Numbered from the stretch's first letter, positions 15,402 through 55,497 are shown. The stretch: DNA of 64,000 bases from a virus (IMGVR_UViG_3300036715_000153:1-64000), one strand, 5' to 3'. Made by a program: numbers and translations. Notes: a model not told the origin generated them from the letters alone.

Positions 15402-15926
15402 TTATAGTGAATTCTTAATAGTCTCTTTATCTACGTTAGGGTACAATGTATTAAGATCGCCCTTAACTAACGCAATAAGAAAGTCTACTTCGTTTTGGTT
15501 AACAGAGTGGAGAATGTTAGCAAATATCTTATCCTTAGTCTTTTTATCGACACCAGACTTCTTGGTCAACATAATGATTCTATTTAAGTTGTTGGATAAA
15601 GTCTGCGGAGCGAGTCCATTCGGCAACAAATGCGTTGGGTAAACGACATCAGAGAAATCATCCCATTCGCCATTCAGCCACAGCCCCATCAATACTACGA
15701 ATGCACGGTCATTGATATAACCTTTAATGATTTTGGTTTGAGATTCGACATCTGCTGCTGCGTCGATTAATTCTAGGATTTCTGGCACTAGTCTGCCTAC
15801 ATAATATGTCATTGGATCTTTCGGTGGTGTTATTATATCGCATTTAGTTAATACACTAGATTGCGTTCCTAATGCTATATCCAGCAACTTTAGTATCAAC
15901 TCATTCAAAGAAGTCAGTGAGATCAT
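15402..15926 (-). CDS. Helical T4-like protein next to DNA polymerase
   Basis: 174 aa, all-helical, with the C-terminal pattern NRIIMLTKKSGVDKKTKDKIFANILHSV and FLIALVKGDLNTLYPNVDKE. It resembles a family conserved in T4-like marine phages beside replication genes (possibly DUF6433). The ATG at 15926 is used because GAGAAAAAG precedes it; it overlaps the polymerase end. Confidence 0.6.
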   Translation of the reverse strand: MISLTSLNELILKLLDIALGTQSSVLTKCDIITPPKDPMTYYVGRLVPEILELIDAAADVESQTKIIKGYINDRAFVVLMGLWLNGEWDDFSDVVYPTHLLPNGLAPQTLSNNLNRIIMLTKKSGVDKKTKDKIFANILHSVNQNEVDFLIALVKGDLNTLYPNVDKETIKNSL

Positions 15927-16884
15927 TCTTTTTCTCAGTAGTCCAGCCAATCGCGTCAGTCACTCCTTGCATCGGGCCTAAGAATGCGGATTCGTACATC
16001 TTTCTTCGGTCGATGTATTTATCTATGTTTAGCTCAACTGGGTACGCACCATCTCCCCAACCAAATACATCTGTTCTGTATGGGCTAGGTTTCATATAAC
16101 AAAATTTAATCTTACCGCCACTCTTAATGGGAGCATATTGGGTGAGATTAGCCTTAGCTATAAAGTGATTGTGGGTCAATGCAGCCTTAACGTTTTGTGG
16201 CGTCCCGGGAGCATACAGCGTATCATTAGGAACGGCCCACTTTGCTAAGTCGTTCACACCTCTCGGAAATGATATAGTCTCTACGGGTAACGTGTTAAAT
16301 AATAATTCTGTTTTGTCTATTAATTTCCACAGCGATTCTTGATCTCTCTTAATAACTAACTCGAATGCCTCTGTTAATGTATCTCTACAGAACTTGGGTG
16401 TCGACGATCTGTTTGTTTCTAGTCCAGTAATAGATAACTTCGGCGTAGCATAACGAATTCCTTCGTTGTCGTGTACTAAGCAGAAGTACCTCTTTTTCTT
16501 GCCCGTGAAGCAGATCGTCGATATTACCTTCTCGCGCTTAAACGATAGTCGGTTCTCTGCGGTATTACACCTAGCCCAAATATCTTTACAAAACCCATCC
16601 AATACGTCTGCCAGCTTAGTGTCTGCAAACTGACATAAAAAGTTAATAGGATCTTTGGGTTTGAACTTCTTAACAAAACAATCTAGATTAAGGAAACATG
16701 AGTCTGTATCTGCAGCCAACGTATAGTCGTCTTCTGGGAATCCTAACTTATGAAAGTAATCATTTATCTTAGATTGTAAGGATAAGTTAGATACTTGACC
16801 AGACAGCGTAATCGCCTCAGCGTTGACTATATCATATAAAGCAAAGTACTGGCTGCCTATAGCTCCGTAGAGCGAATTTGCCAT
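15901..16884 (-). CDS. 43: Family B DNA polymerase gp43, C-terminal fragment
   Basis: Carries the rest of palm, fingers and thumb. It opens at polymerase motif B (NSLYGAIGSQYFALYD), then AEAITLSGQ and motif C AADTDSCFLNLD (DTDS, metal-binding aspartates), and ends LTDFFE, matching the T4 C-terminal clamp-binding tail. The ATG shown at 16884 is most likely intron sequence: a group I intron at 16882-17127 ends exactly at ATG|GCA. Splicing would add IKNR before ANSLYG and restore the catalytic lysine four residues before Asn. Where translation of this half begins is unclear. Confidence 0.85.
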   Translation of the reverse strand: MANSLYGAIGSQYFALYDIVNAEAITLSGQVSNLSLQSKINDYFHKLGFPEDDYTLAADTDSCFLNLDCFVKKFKPKDPINFLCQFADTKLADVLDGFCKDIWARCNTAENRLSFKREKVISTICFTGKKKRYFCLVHDNEGIRYATPKLSITGLETNRSSTPKFCRDTLTEAFELVIKRDQESLWKLIDKTELLFNTLPVETISFPRGVNDLAKWAVPNDTLYAPGTPQNVKAALTHNHFIAKANLTQYAPIKSGGKIKFCYMKPSPYRTDVFGWGDGAYPVELNIDKYIDRRKMYESAFLGPMQGVTDAIGWTTEKKNDLTDFFE

Positions 16885-17127
16885 TTGATGTTCAGAGGAA
16901 TTCGTTATTTTCCTCCCGCGTTTGCTGCTGTATATTCCTATACAGATCGGACTATATCTTCATCCTATTAATAGGAGTTCTGCATTTCGAGGCACTTGCC
17001 CCTACGCCTTTCGGCTAGTCTCTACACCTTCCCATATCAGGGCTTGGCTCGGTATTGTCCGTTCTGGAGTTCCACCGAATTAACAGAATTTTCATTAGAA
17101 ATTACTCTCTAATGCGCCACAATTTTA
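16882..17127 (-). ncRNA. Group I intron without ORF, in DNA polymerase gene
   Basis: About 246 nt. On the minus strand: CCGT|TAAAATTGTGGCG can form P1 with the U.G pair at the splice site; a P2 hairpin (CATTAG..CTAATG); the P3-P4-P5 core GGTGGAACTCC..GGACAATACCGAGCC; P7 as AGAGACTA with ATATAGTCC; P8; a P9 hairpin (CTGTATA..TATACAG); a P9.2 hairpin (GAGGAA..TTCCTC). The last base is G at 16882. The layout parallels the T4 td intron. An alternative 3' site at AACG|AATT also keeps the frame but would not restore the motif B lysine. Confidence 0.85.
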
Positions 17128-17171
17128 ACGGTTTTTAATCCCAGATCTTTGACAGCCAATCTTGAAATTGT
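17128..17171 (-). other. 43: Isolated 44-nt exon of DNA polymerase
   Basis: Between the HNH insertion and the intron lies AC plus 14 codons reading NFKIGCQRSGIKNR. Joined to the N-terminal fragment (..LLTE+Y) and to ANSLYG it gives a continuous polymerase of about 855 residues (T4 gp43 has 898), with Lys four residues before the Asn of motif B. It contains no ATG, GTG or TTG in frame. Confidence 0.65.
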
Positions 17172-17172
17172 C

Positions 17173-18393
17173 TTAGACAGACTTTCCTTTTTCCTCAAAA
17201 GCTCGTCTAATGGTATCGCTGTTAAATCTTCCAACATCTTCTCTCCTTATAATTGTTTTACCATTTGAATCACTAACATCATAATCGCACCACATCTTTA
17301 TTATAACACCAAATTGAGGATATGTACACCCGTCAAAATCAATTAAAAATTTCATACGTTCTTCATTGGTGTTGAAGTGAGCTTTAAACTTATTATTAAT
17401 TGATTTGGTCGATATCTCTGGGCCAAACACACAAACCTTGTTAAATGTTGATATTGAATCAAACAAATAGCAATCGAATAAAACGTAATAACTATTTGAT
17501 GCCCCAAGTATATAATGAGATGAATTGCGGTGTTCTTCCCTTGTTATAATCCCACGTTCGCCGGTTAACAAGTTCAGCGCAGTCACGTTATTTGGATTGT
17601 TCATTGATAATAAACCGGACTCTGAACCATACAGTCTACCAGGAACAAATCCTGATGGTATAATATCAACAATTGGATCGATTTTGATTTGGATTTCTTT
17701 GTTATTGTACCACCTTAAACGCGATTGAGCGACCGACAGAGCTTGTTTATATTCGTCAGAATGCCCTAGGCTATACCCTGGTGGTATGTTTTTATCGTCT
17801 TTTTCTAAATATAAATTGGGTAGTCCTGGTGATGAGTAAAGGATTTTACCACTAATACCATTATTCAACTTCATTAGTTCCTTTGTTTCGTCAGATCTCG
17901 AAGAACCTGTGTTTATGGGTATATAATCACCAGACGTGTACCTTATGTCATCGACACTTATATATAACCTATCTGTTTCGTCATCTTTGTTTTTTACACC
18001 GAGCATACCAGACGACCGTAAACTTGAATTGCGCTTCTGTTCATCTGATTGTCGTCTACCTTTATTAGATTTACTAATCTGTTCAGATATATAATGTCTA
18101 GCAAGTTCAAACAAAACAGACGTTTTTTTGTCTCCCGGTATAACACGTCGCATTTGGTTAAATGCAAACCACATTTTATCACCATATATCTTTGCTAACA
18201 TCCAGTGACAAATATAGTGTTCTCTACAAGTTAGCACCTTTATGTTGTTTGGATCAAACTCTAAAGACGGGTCAATTGACCTTGGTATAATATGATGTCG
18301 CTCTAATCCGGATTTTGGTGTATATATTCTATTTGGTATTGAATCTAAAAATTTATAATACCTGGTGTTATAATGATTACTTTTTATCTGCAT
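17173..18393 (-). CDS. HNH homing endonuclease with NUMOD-type region
   Basis: 406 aa. The HNH motif is ERHHIIPRSI..NNIKVLTCREHYICHWML (residues 31-66), as in T4 Mob-type enzymes. NKGRRQSDEQKRNSS (about 109-123) resembles the NUMOD3 DNA-binding repeat. The long C-terminal part (YDVSDSNGKTIIRREDVGRF) probably gives site specificity. It would cleave uninterrupted gp43 genes. It starts at the ATG at 18393, 35 bases after its own late box, and is in the same frame as the polymerase exon that follows its TAA. Confidence 0.85.
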   Translation of the reverse strand: MQIKSNHYNTRYYKFLDSIPNRIYTPKSGLERHHIIPRSIDPSLEFDPNNIKVLTCREHYICHWMLAKIYGDKMWFAFNQMRRVIPGDKKTSVLFELARHYISEQISKSNKGRRQSDEQKRNSSLRSSGMLGVKNKDDETDRLYISVDDIRYTSGDYIPINTGSSRSDETKELMKLNNGISGKILYSSPGLPNLYLEKDDKNIPPGYSLGHSDEYKQALSVAQSRLRWYNNKEIQIKIDPIVDIIPSGFVPGRLYGSESGLLSMNNPNNVTALNLLTGERGIITREEHRNSSHYILGASNSYYVLFDCYLFDSISTFNKVCVFGPEISTKSINNKFKAHFNTNEERMKFLIDFDGCTYPQFGVIIKMWCDYDVSDSNGKTIIRREDVGRFNSDTIRRAFEEKGKSV

Positions 18394-18427
18394 GGTATGG
18401 AGCCCTCTATTATTAAATGCACCATAC

Positions 18428-18435
18428 TATTTAGT
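18428..18435 (-). promoter_or_regulatory. Late promoter box before HNH gene
   Basis: ACTAAATA on the minus strand, 35 bases upstream of the endonuclease start; identical to the boxes before gp20, gp22 and gp23. Confidence 0.65.
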
Positions 18436-18442
18436 TAATTTG

Positions 18443-19987
18443 CTATTCTGTCAATAATCTCCGTCTTATTTCGGCATCAATAGACTCGTATTGTTTCTTT
18501 AGTGCCTTCATTTCGGTCTTCGCTTTAGATCTGTTATCCAGCACCTGTTTAATGAGCGTGGGAATAATACCAATCTTGTTTTTATAATACAGTTGACCGT
18601 TTGCTGCTATCGTCATGTCGTATTTCTTAAGCACATCAGTCATCTCACTAACGTCTTCCCACGCATTTAGAATACTGGTGAGATTCTTTCTATAGTATGG
18701 CGTTAACTCTTCTGGTACATCGTGCATACCAACCATAGTCTCGGGAGAGATGTTGCACGTAATAATCATCGAGGGATACAGTGAAGTTGCGTCGATGGTT
18801 ACAACGTTATCAAACAAACCAGCAGGTGGCTCTTTAACATACGCACCCTCATACGCAACTTCCTTAGCATTGTGTCTTTCTGGTGGGAGGATTATTCCAT
18901 CCTTGATAAGAGAGTTATACACCAAACAAGTCCATAGTTTAACAGGAGAAAATACGTTCTGATAATTTGTCTTTGCGTTATATGCTAGTTCAACCTGTAA
19001 CTGAATCATCTTTAACTTTGCATCCATGCGCACAACGAGGTCCACGTCAATTATGTTGTAATCATTGTGAAGCTGAGGATGTTGTAACCACAAGTCGTCG
19101 ATAGATCCTTCGAACTCTACCTTTGTTTCGCCTGCTCCTAATACTAACTCAGAGATATATCCCAAACGATACGACTCTTCATTACCCGGTGAATATTTCT
19201 TATACAACTCTTGATAGTCTAAATGACTAATGCCTGCGATGTCGTATTCGGTTGTCTTGGACATGTGGTCGCCAGACTCTTTTTCCCGTATAATTCCAAA
19301 CGGTGACAACTGCAATACTGTCTTATCACCCAGAACTCTTTTAATTCTGTTATGGATGTATGGTATATCGAATAACTTAGAATACCACCCAGAGATGATA
19401 TCGGGGTAGTCTGATTTCCAGAAAGTGATAAGTCTGGTCAACAGATCGGTCTCGTCTACGCATCTAACATATACGATATCATCTGCTATAACCTTAATGC
19501 GTTCCACTGTCGTTTTGCTTGTGCTGTATTCAGCAGTAGACCACGTACGAAACTTCTTATCGATCGTAGAGTAAATAGTTATTGCTGTTATCTCTTGAAG
19601 TGCTGTCATTGGGTCGGGGAACCCGGCGTCAGACCTAACCTCAATATCCAAGAAGAATGTATTAATAAGATTCGAATCATACTCGATATCGTCGGGGTAT
19701 GTATCTCTAGCCCACTGCATTTCCCAGTTACGAGTTCCGTGGATGATCATGCCACTCACACCATCATATCTCTTAATGGCGTCTCTGGCGTCTTGGGTTG
19801 TATCGTATACTGTGGGCCTTAGGTTTATATTGCCAGTAAGAGCCTTAAATCCGGTCTCGTCTCTAGTCGGGAAATATAGCGTAGGTGTAAGGTTACATTC
19901 TACTAGATGTTTACGAACACCATTCTCAATGTATCTGTGTAAGATATTGCCACGGTGCTCTTTAATGTACGTAGGAAACTTAGCCAA
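18443..19987 (-). CDS. 43: Family B DNA polymerase gp43, N-terminal fragment
   Basis: 514 aa with the N-terminal and 3'-5' exonuclease domains and part of the palm. ExoI is TFFLDIEVRSD (residues 109-119), ExoII is GWYSKLFDIPYIHNR, ExoIII is YNIIDVDLVVR, and polymerase motif A is TIDATSLYPSMI (near 400). The frame ends at TAG just after RRRLLTE where the HNH element is inserted. The start is TTG at 19987, placed after GAGGG inside a hairpin that may be a translational operator. T4 gp43 is 898 aa in one chain. Confidence 0.93.
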   Translation of the reverse strand: MAKFPTYIKEHRGNILHRYIENGVRKHLVECNLTPTLYFPTRDETGFKALTGNINLRPTVYDTTQDARDAIKRYDGVSGMIIHGTRNWEMQWARDTYPDDIEYDSNLINTFFLDIEVRSDAGFPDPMTALQEITAITIYSTIDKKFRTWSTAEYSTSKTTVERIKVIADDIVYVRCVDETDLLTRLITFWKSDYPDIISGWYSKLFDIPYIHNRIKRVLGDKTVLQLSPFGIIREKESGDHMSKTTEYDIAGISHLDYQELYKKYSPGNEESYRLGYISELVLGAGETKVEFEGSIDDLWLQHPQLHNDYNIIDVDLVVRMDAKLKMIQLQVELAYNAKTNYQNVFSPVKLWTCLVYNSLIKDGIILPPERHNAKEVAYEGAYVKEPPAGLFDNVVTIDATSLYPSMIITCNISPETMVGMHDVPEELTPYYRKNLTSILNAWEDVSEMTDVLKKYDMTIAANGQLYYKNKIGIIPTLIKQVLDNRSKAKTEMKALKKQYESIDAEIRRRLLTE

Positions 19988-36462: not shown

Positions 36463-36519
36463 CCTTTATTTGCAACTATTTGGAGTGGTTGTAAGTTGTT
36501 GATTATTAAAGTCGTAAAA

Positions 36520-36539
36520 AATCCCCATTTCTGGGGATT
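36520..36539 (-). terminator. Terminator of the tmRNA gene
   Basis: AATCCCC/GGGGATT stem with a 6-base loop, followed on the minus strand by TTTTTTAC. It ends the coding piece of the tmRNA. Confidence 0.85.
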
Positions 36540-36544
36540 AGTGA

Positions 36545-36890
36545 TTAGATTGGGTAATAAGGTTCTAATCGACCCCAAGCAGTTATTACGCTGCTAGTGC
36601 GTATGCGCCCATTGAGTCATTTGCGTTTAACAAATTGCTTGATTTACTGTCATCGCCTACAGTGTTGCATTCTTCGTTATCTCACGTCAGTCGATTCCAA
36701 TTCATCCCCATTATTAAGTATACTCGAAATCGCAACTCCCTGAGCCGTTTGCGTCTGGAATATACTTAATGGTGGAGATGGAGGCATCGAAGCCTCGTCC
36801 TGCATGCCTTCACTAAAAATGACGAGTCAAAGTCACAAGGACGAATGACTCGTGGGTACAACAATTCTGTCTACCATTAAGTCCTTACGA
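36545..36890 (-). ncRNA. ssrA: Circularly permuted (two-piece) tmRNA
   Basis: Minus strand 5' to 3': an acceptor piece ends at 36770 with GAGGC-TTCGAT-GCCTC (T arm), CATCTCC and ACCA. A 60-nt segment (36710-36769) follows, whose ends TTAAGTATA/TATACTTAA pair. The coding piece then starts at 36709 with GGGGATGAATTGGAATCGAC. GGGGATG pairs with CATCTCC over 7 bp and has the G3.U pair used for alanine charging. The tag frame (36624-36583) encodes ANDSMGAYALAA with two stops. A terminator follows. The T loop is one base short, and exact processed ends are not certain. Confidence 0.88.
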
Positions 36891-47063: not shown

Positions 47064-47071
47064 ACTAAATA
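47064..47071 (+). promoter_or_regulatory. Late promoter box on the plus strand
   Basis: ACTAAATA 71 bases before the plus-strand HNH gene; the only copy on this strand with a matching gene. Confidence 0.6.
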
Positions 47072-47141
47072 GAATGGTAGCCGCGATATTACTAGTATCC
47101 GCTACCTCTAGTCACTCTAATAACAATTGAAAGGCAATCGT

Positions 47142-48287
47142 ATGACCAGCAATCTAATTTATACAACGTTAAAACTCAAATCCAAGAACGAACATTATCT
47201 AATTAGGTATTGTAACTTCATTCGATCACTAAGTACACAACTTTCTTCCGGAGGCACAGAGGCTCACCATATTTGTCCGGTTGGCGAATATCCAGAATAT
47301 TCTGATTTCGAATTACACCCATGGAACTGTGTACACCTAACAAAACACCAGCACTTTATCGCGCACTGGATGCTATGGAAAATCTTAGGATTATCTCAGA
47401 CCCGCGCGTTCAATATGATGAGTACAACCCGTGATGGAATTAGGATTAAATCTGGTCGGGTATTTGCACAGTTGAAGGACGATTATCACGCTGAGCAGAT
47501 CAGGTTGGCTGAGTTAGGGTTACATGCAAATCAGACACAAGAGTTCAGAGATCAACAACGGGCTGTGCAGAACGCCATAGTCGCCGCAGGTGAGCATCAC
47601 TGGTTAACTGAAGAACATAGTATATTTAAGAGTGAAATGGAAAAGAAGAGATATGAAGATGGTACTCATCCGTGGTGTAGTAAAGAGTTCCAGGAGGAGA
47701 ATGGCGCGCGTGCTTCGGCTAGGCAGAAGGCATTAGTTGATGCAGGTGTGCATATTTGGCAGAGTGAAGAGTGCAAGGCAGAAACATCGAGGAGGCTCTT
47801 AGAACTATCTGCCAAAGGAGAACACCCCTTCCAAGATGCGGAGTTCAAAGCTCGTAATTCTGCTAGACAAAAAGAATTATCGGCCAAGGGAGAACATCAT
47901 ACACAACAGAAAGAGTGCATCGAATTACACAAGGAAGGGTTATTGTGTAAAAGAAACAGGAATAATGTTGCTATATTGAAGGGTCACGCGGAAAGACTTC
48001 GAATGGTCTTAGGTTCGGGCTATGATTTAAAATCGGATGAATGGATAAACGAAAAGATTAAAGAATTAGAGTTAATTGAATATATAGAACCACCAAAGGC
48101 ATATCAGTGCAACTCAGACGAATCTCTAAAGGCATCTGGATTGAGAATAAAGAATAAGTCGAATAGGGAATGTGTTGTAGAGTTAAGACTTCTTGCTAAG
48201 GACAAAAATGTTACCCTATCTAGGGGATATAGCATGAAACCAGATGAATGGATATTAGAAAAGATTAAGGAAATACAAAAGTTGTAG
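47142..48287 (+). CDS. HNH homing endonuclease, plus strand
   Basis: 381 aa from ATG 47142 (AAAGG before it). HNH motif EAHHICPVGEY..WNCVHLTKHQHFIAHWMLW (about 40-75), Mob-type. Residues about 120-270 contain repeats of a G-H-x5-EF-x6-ARQK-L unit (for example EHPFQDAEFKARNSARQKEL), probably DNA-contacting. Two C-terminal copies of GYDLKSDEWINEKIKEL and GYSMKPDEWILEKIKEI follow. It lies against the transcription direction between gp23 and the other HNH gene. Confidence 0.82.
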   Translation: MTSNLIYTTLKLKSKNEHYLIRYCNFIRSLSTQLSSGGTEAHHICPVGEYPEYSDFELHPWNCVHLTKHQHFIAHWMLWKILGLSQTRAFNMMSTTRDGIRIKSGRVFAQLKDDYHAEQIRLAELGLHANQTQEFRDQQRAVQNAIVAAGEHHWLTEEHSIFKSEMEKKRYEDGTHPWCSKEFQEENGARASARQKALVDAGVHIWQSEECKAETSRRLLELSAKGEHPFQDAEFKARNSARQKELSAKGEHHTQQKECIELHKEGLLCKRNRNNVAILKGHAERLRMVLGSGYDLKSDEWINEKIKELELIEYIEPPKAYQCNSDESLKASGLRIKNKSNRECVVELRLLAKDKNVTLSRGYSMKPDEWILEKIKEIQKL

Positions 48288-54876: not shown

Positions 54877-55497
54877 ATGAAAAACATTAAAATAACAGAT
54901 TACCTAAATGAACAAAGGTTGTTCCCTATATTAACTACAATATTCGATGGCTGTCTTATTACCAAACAACATCGAATGAAAATCGATGGAAAATTATTAA
55001 TTGTAGATTTTTTAATAATCACCAAATTTGGTCAATTGATCATCGAGTTCAATGGTAATCTTCATTATCAGAGAGCAGAAACTCAACTCAGGGACAACAT
55101 GTTACGCGACTACTGTATGGTAAACGATATTATGTTAGTCGAGATACCATATTTCATACAACTCACCAATGATACGGCCGCATTCCTTTTTAGTAAAGAT
55201 GTAGTCAAATATTATTTATCAAAATTCAACATATCTACAACATTTCCACATGGATTTATTTCTCCAAAACTAACTCTACCGTGCGATTTTAATATTGCTG
55301 GTTGGAATAGATTTATGTCCGATATTCATAACATAATTCCACATGACCACAACCTCGCAATAACACGTCAGATATGGGATAGTTTATATCATAAGATGGA
55401 GTCATCTACATACCCGTCTATATCTTGTACGGTCGGGGTAGATATGTACACCCATTTTATCACTCCATCCACTTTCTTTGAAAATTATCCAACATAG
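54877..55497 (+). CDS. Vsr/EDxHD-like homing endonuclease
   Basis: 206 aa. Residues about 38-100 (KIDGKLLIVDFLIITKFGQ, LIIEFNGNLHYQ, LRDYCMVNDIMLVEIPY) show the strand-strand-helix core of very-short-patch-repair-like nucleases, with D, E and H residues as in EDxHD homing enzymes of phages. It is a free-standing gene against the transcription direction between gp20 and gp19. The rest of the chain is not recognised. Confidence 0.65.
   Translation: MKNIKITDYLNEQRLFPILTTIFDGCLITKQHRMKIDGKLLIVDFLIITKFGQLIIEFNGNLHYQRAETQLRDNMLRDYCMVNDIMLVEIPYFIQLTNDTAAFLFSKDVVKYYLSKFNISTTFPHGFISPKLTLPCDFNIAGWNRFMSDIHNIIPHDHNLAITRQIWDSLYHKMESSTYPSISCTVGVDMYTHFITPSTFFENYPT

Follow-up and report, generated by a model that had tools for sequence, protein, structure and literature searches.

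A T4-like virus carries a family B DNA polymerase gene (gene 43) that is broken at the fingers tip and interrupted twice, by an HNH endonuclease gene and by a group I intron. This raises the question of how the polymerase is made and whether the two interrupting elements travel together. The window analysed here, a stretch of 64,000 nt (IMGVR_UViG_3300036715_000153:1-64000), is part of a 140,394-bp virus record with T4-like gene order, in which the portal, protease, scaffold, major head, tail tube and tail sheath proteins were recognised by matches to phage families; among the collections searched, nothing closely related to the window was found. The double interruption is real. It is of a known kind in a new combination, bringing together an HNH gene, a split gene 43 and an ORF-less intron at motif B. 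The explanation that we favour, with a probability of about 0.7, is that gene 43 is split, that the HNH enzyme is made late and that endonuclease, exon 1 and intron home jointly. It builds on the anatomy of the locus, splice sites placed by comparison, promoter geometry and exchange blocks in relatives; from these we infer splicing, cleavage, subunit assembly and homing in the window phage.

A polymerase gene in two pieces

The N-terminal part of the polymerase, gp43A, is encoded on the minus strand from 19987 to a TAG at 18443 (514 aa, with a TTG start as listed) and ends in the fingers tip. As the initial annotation had proposed, this ORF is a polymerase, with matches to the Pfam models DNA_pol_B_exo1 and DNA_pol_B, and its remainder, from motif B (ANSLYGA) to the polymerase end, was found as an ORF on the same strand (16881 to 15901; exon 2 of gp43B). 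The annotation had also read 44 bases ahead of the intron as 14 polymerase codons, NFKIGCQRSGIKNR, and joined all parts into a single protein of 855 residues. That frame is wrong. The NFKIGCQRSGIKNR segment occurs in none of the relatives searched, a comparison that both the intron and the split survive, and it adds nothing when scored together with exon 2 against a profile of relatives (38.8 bits, versus 38.6 for exon 2 alone).

A different frame opens at an ATG at 17237, 3 nt 3' of the Shine-Dalgarno sequence AAGGAGAG (17248 to 17241, minus strand, inside the HNH ORF). The resulting exon 1 (17237 to 17127, minus strand) has 37 codons, specifies the second fingers helix MLEDLTAIPLDELLRKKESLSKTISRLAVKDLGLKTV and joins ANSLYGA in frame once the intron (17126 to 16882) is removed; the first 65 nt of gp43B overlap the 3' end of the HNH ORF. 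With this frame the profile score rises from 38.6 to 43.0 bits, a modest gain. Three further observations agree with this frame: the ungapped alignment of MLEDLTAIPLDELLRKKESLSKTISRLAVKDLGLKTV with the second fingers helix of the relative L021 (MSVEELLCAKHNLESKISALNNEQMAIKIL), the Shine-Dalgarno sequence, and the layout shared by relatives. The frame matches the second fingers helix in unsplit and split relatives alike. Since gp43B has a Shine-Dalgarno sequence and a start of its own, the product is two polypeptides of 514 and 363 aa rather than one 855-aa chain. The two ORFs together span an uninterrupted relative and the second has its own start signal, which places the gene among the split T4-type PolB genes. 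Thus, of the annotated twice-broken polymerase gene, both interruptions stand, but the frame assigned to the 14 codons, the junction at which the exons are spliced and the single-protein join do not. In Aeromonas salmonicida phage 25, according to PMC2988022, gp43A and gp43B are reported to co-purify with polymerase activity.

The HNH gene and its start region

The element that follows gp43A had been annotated as an HNH gene with its own late box, and both parts of this description were borne out. The ORF runs from 18393 to 17173 on the minus strand (406 aa), is intact and matches a PHROG homing endonuclease family (E 1.5e-31); it is preceded by a CTAAATA box at 18434 to 18428. The HH...N...H residues are invariant among the HNH relatives. 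From these features the protein is predicted to be a free-standing, MobE-like HNH homing endonuclease (phrog_655); searches with it gave no match in Pfam, and a profile search of the PDB gave none either. Among isolates, the nearest genes (about 25% identical) are MobE genes of Acinetobacter Lazarusvirus phages (Apostate, Lazarus, AB-Navy4), where they split gene 43. There, too, a MobE-like HNH gene lies between split gp43A and gp43B, but on the opposite strand, with several extra ORFs in the gap and no intron.

The CTAAATA box precedes the start of the HNH gene by about 35 nt. The portal, scaffold, major head and tail tube genes also have this motif directly ahead of them on the coding strand, and the copies on the plus strand lie within antisense genes, with one exception located upstream of a second HNH gene. 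Because the total number of copies is not above chance (19 versus 16.6), the evidence resides in their position rather than in their count. CTAAATA thus seems to be the late box of the window phage. The alternative ATAAATA was rejected as a late box because it is strongly under-represented in the window: it occurs 8 times where 25 copies are expected, and each of 100 shuffles gave a higher or equal count.

In phage Aeh1, the late box CTAAATA begins at -12 (PMC1524935). Applying this spacing to the window places the predicted start of the HNH transcript at 18422. This is the final base in the 5' arm of a hairpin (18427 to 18395, minus strand; arms 18427 to 18422 and 18400 to 18395) formed around the HNH Shine-Dalgarno sequence (18407 to 18404). 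An RNA reading through from upstream would therefore form the hairpin, while the late RNA, devoid of the 5' arm, would not. Taken alone, the window hairpin falls short of significance (z -0.87). Start hairpins that overlap or adjoin a late-type box are seen again, with different sequences, in L021, L022, L040, L044 and L141, and I-TevI, segB and Aeh1 mobE are controlled by a late promoter and a hairpin (PMC2988022). In the case of I-TevI, from the T4 td intron, the late promoter likewise falls within the 5' arm of a hairpin masking the ribosome site, although this enzyme is intron-encoded and of the GIY-YIG type. Insertion of the HNH gene mobE in Aeh1 nrdA also leaves a gene in two translated pieces, and a hairpin and a late promoter with CTAAATA control the enzyme; the host gene is another one and the site has no intron.

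In three relatives (L044, L120 and L141), the promoter and start region of the HNH gene resembles the spliced intron site in register, at 19-22 of 32 bases. This level is reached by 2-4 per thousand of 1177 controls in which promoter, Shine-Dalgarno sequence and start were imposed, the register being picked post hoc and L044 and L141 sharing their promoter. As a hint to the target, the similarity is not significant in the window, L021 or L023. It recalls the operator and homing site of I-TevI, and we regard it as a lead to what the endonuclease might recognise.

Two further genes of this kind were seen in the window. A second MobE-like HNH gene (47127 to 48287, plus strand, 386 aa), with its own CTAAATA box at 47065, adjoins the major head gene and is 35% identical to the first over the N-terminal 117 residues. 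A third likely homing endonuclease (54877 to 55497, plus strand, 206 aa) lies beside the portal gene and matches phrog_559, the family also matched by the antisense endonuclease of L126.

The motif B intron and its splice sites

Group I core elements had been noted beside motif B. They correspond to a match to Rfam RF00028 at 17137 to 16928 on the minus strand, with 90.2 bits (gathering score 50; E 9e-22), over the full length of the model (1-253); it is the only group I intron found by Rfam in the whole 140,394-bp record. The intron is IA2-like and would be self-splicing. It has no ORF and extends from 17126 to 16882 (minus strand, 245 nt). The junction had been given as CCGT/GCAAAT; the predicted join is CCGTT/GCAAAT instead. 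The motif B lysine is in place as annotated, since the join AAACCGTT/GCAAAT retains K-T-V-A-N-S, and the ligated exons, if spliced, are predicted to read AAACCGTTGCAAATTCG.

The 5' exon ends in a U opposite a G of the guide sequence and the intron ends in G, as in group I introns generally. Comparison of the 15 motif-B introns that were delimited supports the placement of the splice sites. In 14 of them, P1 forms between the intron and the last four bases of the exon ahead of the 5' site, starting with U.G (U.G, U.G, G-C, C-G in the window; U.G, U-A, C-G, C-G in L021 and L130). Among introns at the second of the two sites described below, P1 has G-C in L040 versus C-G in L044 and L141, thus showing compensating changes between loci. 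P1 of L045, placed by eye, fits only with a 5' site one base earlier.

The introns occupy neighbouring positions. Those of the window, L021 and L130 lie directly before the A/N-N-S codons (site 1), while those of L023, L040, L042, L044, L120, L126, L128, L135, L137, L140 and L141 lie 10 nt further 3' (site 2); the intron of L045 is 9 nt 3' of site 1. In sequence, the window intron groups with those of L021, L130 and L045 (70-73%, versus 57-62% for site 2 introns). Its grouping with L045 indicates that related introns occupy sites 9 nt apart. Intron matches in Shewanella and Vibrio were set aside as lying elsewhere than the motif-B site of gene 43, and the polymerase interruption of phage JSE, near residue 402, is at a different site.

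The closest known arrangement is that of phage 25, in which, according to Petrov, Ratnayaka and Karam 2010 as cited in PMC2993671 and PMC2988022 (record NC_008208), gene 43 is organised as 43A, seg43(25) and 43B with an ORF-less IA2 intron said to depend on the free-standing enzyme. Gene, split region, free-standing endonuclease between the parts and ORF-less group I intron in 43B are thus shared with the window. The differences are that the phage 25 enzyme is of the GIY-YIG type rather than HNH, that its intron follows GAL (as placed by eye), about 20 nt further 3', and that its hairpin lies beside the ribosome site and not over it.

Joint exchange of endonuclease and intron in relatives

Altogether, the favoured explanation envisages gene 43 as two translated genes, divided at the fingers tip, with products that would assemble unjoined. 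The HNH enzyme encoded between them would be made late, from its own promoter, with the hairpin hiding its start on read-through RNA. In a mixed infection, the endonuclease would cut an intronless gene 43 near the intron site, and repair templated by the donor would transfer, in a single tract, everything from the end of gp43A through the endonuclease gene and exon 1 up to and including the intron.

The window contains a free-standing endonuclease adjoining an ORF-less intron in a conserved gene, as collaborative pairs do. Collaborative or trans homing is described for F-CphI and the cyanophage psbA intron, for polymerase introns of T7-like phages and for T4 mobE with the nrdB intron (Zeng 2009 and Bonocora and Shub 2009, as cited in PMC2988022 and PMC10448857). 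These systems share with the window a free-standing endonuclease near an ORF-less or defunct intron in a conserved gene. In them, however, cleavage at the intron site is known and the host gene is unsplit, whereas for the window such cleavage is a prediction.

Relatives support collaborative homing more directly than the window can. Roughly a dozen uncultured relatives share the layout; their endonucleases belong to at least two families and lie in either orientation, and their introns occupy neighbouring sites. Counted from the intron start, identity between L040 and L042 is 73.5% as far as -1455, 93.7% between -1455 and +262, and 63.6% beyond; gp43A stops at -1390, the HNH gene extends from -1367 to -165 and the intron from 0 to 255, so that the block ends 6 nt past the intron. 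Between L137 and L140, which have another, antisense endonuclease, identity is 96.6% from -1353 to +348, against 76.4% before and 70.0% after, and the block ends about 94 nt past the intron. Both blocks take in the intron and exon 1 as well as the endonuclease gene and the terminal part of gp43A. Endonuclease, exon 1 and intron have thus been exchanged jointly on two occasions, each time with a different, unrelated endonuclease. The blocks cannot be put down to constraint on the intron, as the endonuclease genes are highly identical too, and a chimeric assembly of L040 is disfavoured because L041, from a separate metagenome, repeats it. The blocks provide strong comparative evidence that collaborative homing operates in this class. 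At that level the earlier proposal of collaborative homing stands, supported also by co-occurrence of the two elements in separate polymerase clades, although part of the anatomy on which it was founded was wrong.

Related introns are accompanied by the HNH gene in L040, by another endonuclease in L126 and by none in L135, a pattern that we interpret as endonuclease turnover beside a persistent intron. Exon 1, the intron and the start of exon 2 of L135 are 98-100% identical to those of L040; L135 lacks the HNH gene yet keeps its last part and the gp43B Shine-Dalgarno sequence, which fits loss of the HNH gene from a gene already split. HNH relatives occupy the same fingers tip in L021, L022, L023, L040 (repeated by L041), L042, L043, L044, L045 (antisense), L120 and L141. 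The slot of L126, L137 and L140 holds the different, antisense endonuclease, with Vsr-like and NUMOD3 matches; in L128, L135, L156, L163 and L220 the gene is split and no endonuclease ORF was seen in the slot, and the gap of L179 has a small ORF that is HNH-like by reading. An intron is present in 6 of the 8 loci found through HNH with both flanks resolved, and an endonuclease in 10 of the 12 polymerase loci found through the intron with a resolved slot; in the 80 loci collected through gp43B exon 2 only, no break at motif B is seen and four genes are split at the tip, these sets having been found by different routes and loci of one clade not being independent. In a polymerase tree (FastTree, midpoint root), endonuclease and intron occur together in four lineages: the L023/L040-L141 clade, the L021/L045 clade, the window and phage 25. 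Introns without an endonuclease (L128, L135) and endonucleases without an intron (L022, L043, the Acinetobacter phages) count against the favoured explanation.

The latter group also speaks for an alternative that we consider unlikely: that the fingers tip is itself the homing target of the endonuclease and that the intron, some 110 nt off, is a passenger of co-conversion, carried often since the distance is short. Against this, the 3' borders of the two blocks, 6 and about 94 nt past the intron, are as expected for a cut near the intron site, and motif-B introns are absent from unsplit genes in the 80-locus sample. We consider it quite improbable that HNH gene and intron are old, inactive and immobile residents of a vertically inherited split gene. 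The HNH protein (39% identity), gp43A (36%) and gp43B (37%) have indeed diverged from L021 to a like extent, so recent mobility is not visible in the window; however, the HNH residues and ORF are intact and relatives have recently exchanged both elements together. A single composite group I intron, occupying the whole stretch between gp43A and motif B, with the HNH gene as its internal ORF, and yielding one spliced polymerase, is allowed by gene order alone, and HNH enzymes encoded in introns are common. We rejected it as very improbable on the basis of P1 pairing and the layouts of relatives: exon 1, between HNH gene and intron, encodes a conserved fingers helix, P1 forms with exon 1 and not with gp43A, and the endonuclease is antisense in L045, L126, L137 and L140, absent in L128 and L135, and present without the intron in L022 and L043. 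Removal of both the HNH stretch and the intron with NFKIGCQRSGIKNR kept, giving one 855-aa polymerase, has in its favour a frame open for 15 codons that retains the lysine four residues before NS, but can be dismissed on alignment with relatives, none of which matches the segment, the other frame giving the fingers helix with its own Shine-Dalgarno sequence and start.

Within joint homing, the fingers tip might act as a docking slot at which unrelated endonuclease families replace each other beside nearby motif-B introns that remain in place; the endonuclease gene would move as one cassette with exon 1 and the intron, and its product would recognise the intron site and, perhaps, an operator in its own promoter. 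We hold the chances of this extension to be even. If it is true, turnover of endonucleases at a fixed slot would both generate and maintain collaborative homing pairs. The gathered loci amount to natural replicates, with both elements, either alone, or endonucleases swapped or lost beside related introns; their exchange blocks have mappable borders, and they permit tests on short synthetic DNA for which the phage is not needed. They also show an essential polymerase held in two pieces across several separate lineages.

Other interruptions were observed in these genes. A split intein at motif C is present in L042 (5551-8007) and L044 (5568-8068), consisting of an N-part, a free-standing ORF of 313 aa and a C-part ending in LLHN before TDS. 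Both the HNH split and the group I intron precede it in the gene, making three kinds of interruption in one gene; the start of this intein is found also in L126, L128 and L140. In the exonuclease domain, homology is broken for more than 1 kb in L044 (near 1133-2576) and L045 (reversed, near 1502-2864), possibly by a further insertion. Elsewhere in the window, a permuted (two-piece) tmRNA gene, unreported by ARAGORN, lies at 36515 to 36874 on the minus strand and matches RF01850 with 114 bits and RF04321 with 97 bits; tmRNAs encoded by phages have reportedly been discussed for methylophages.
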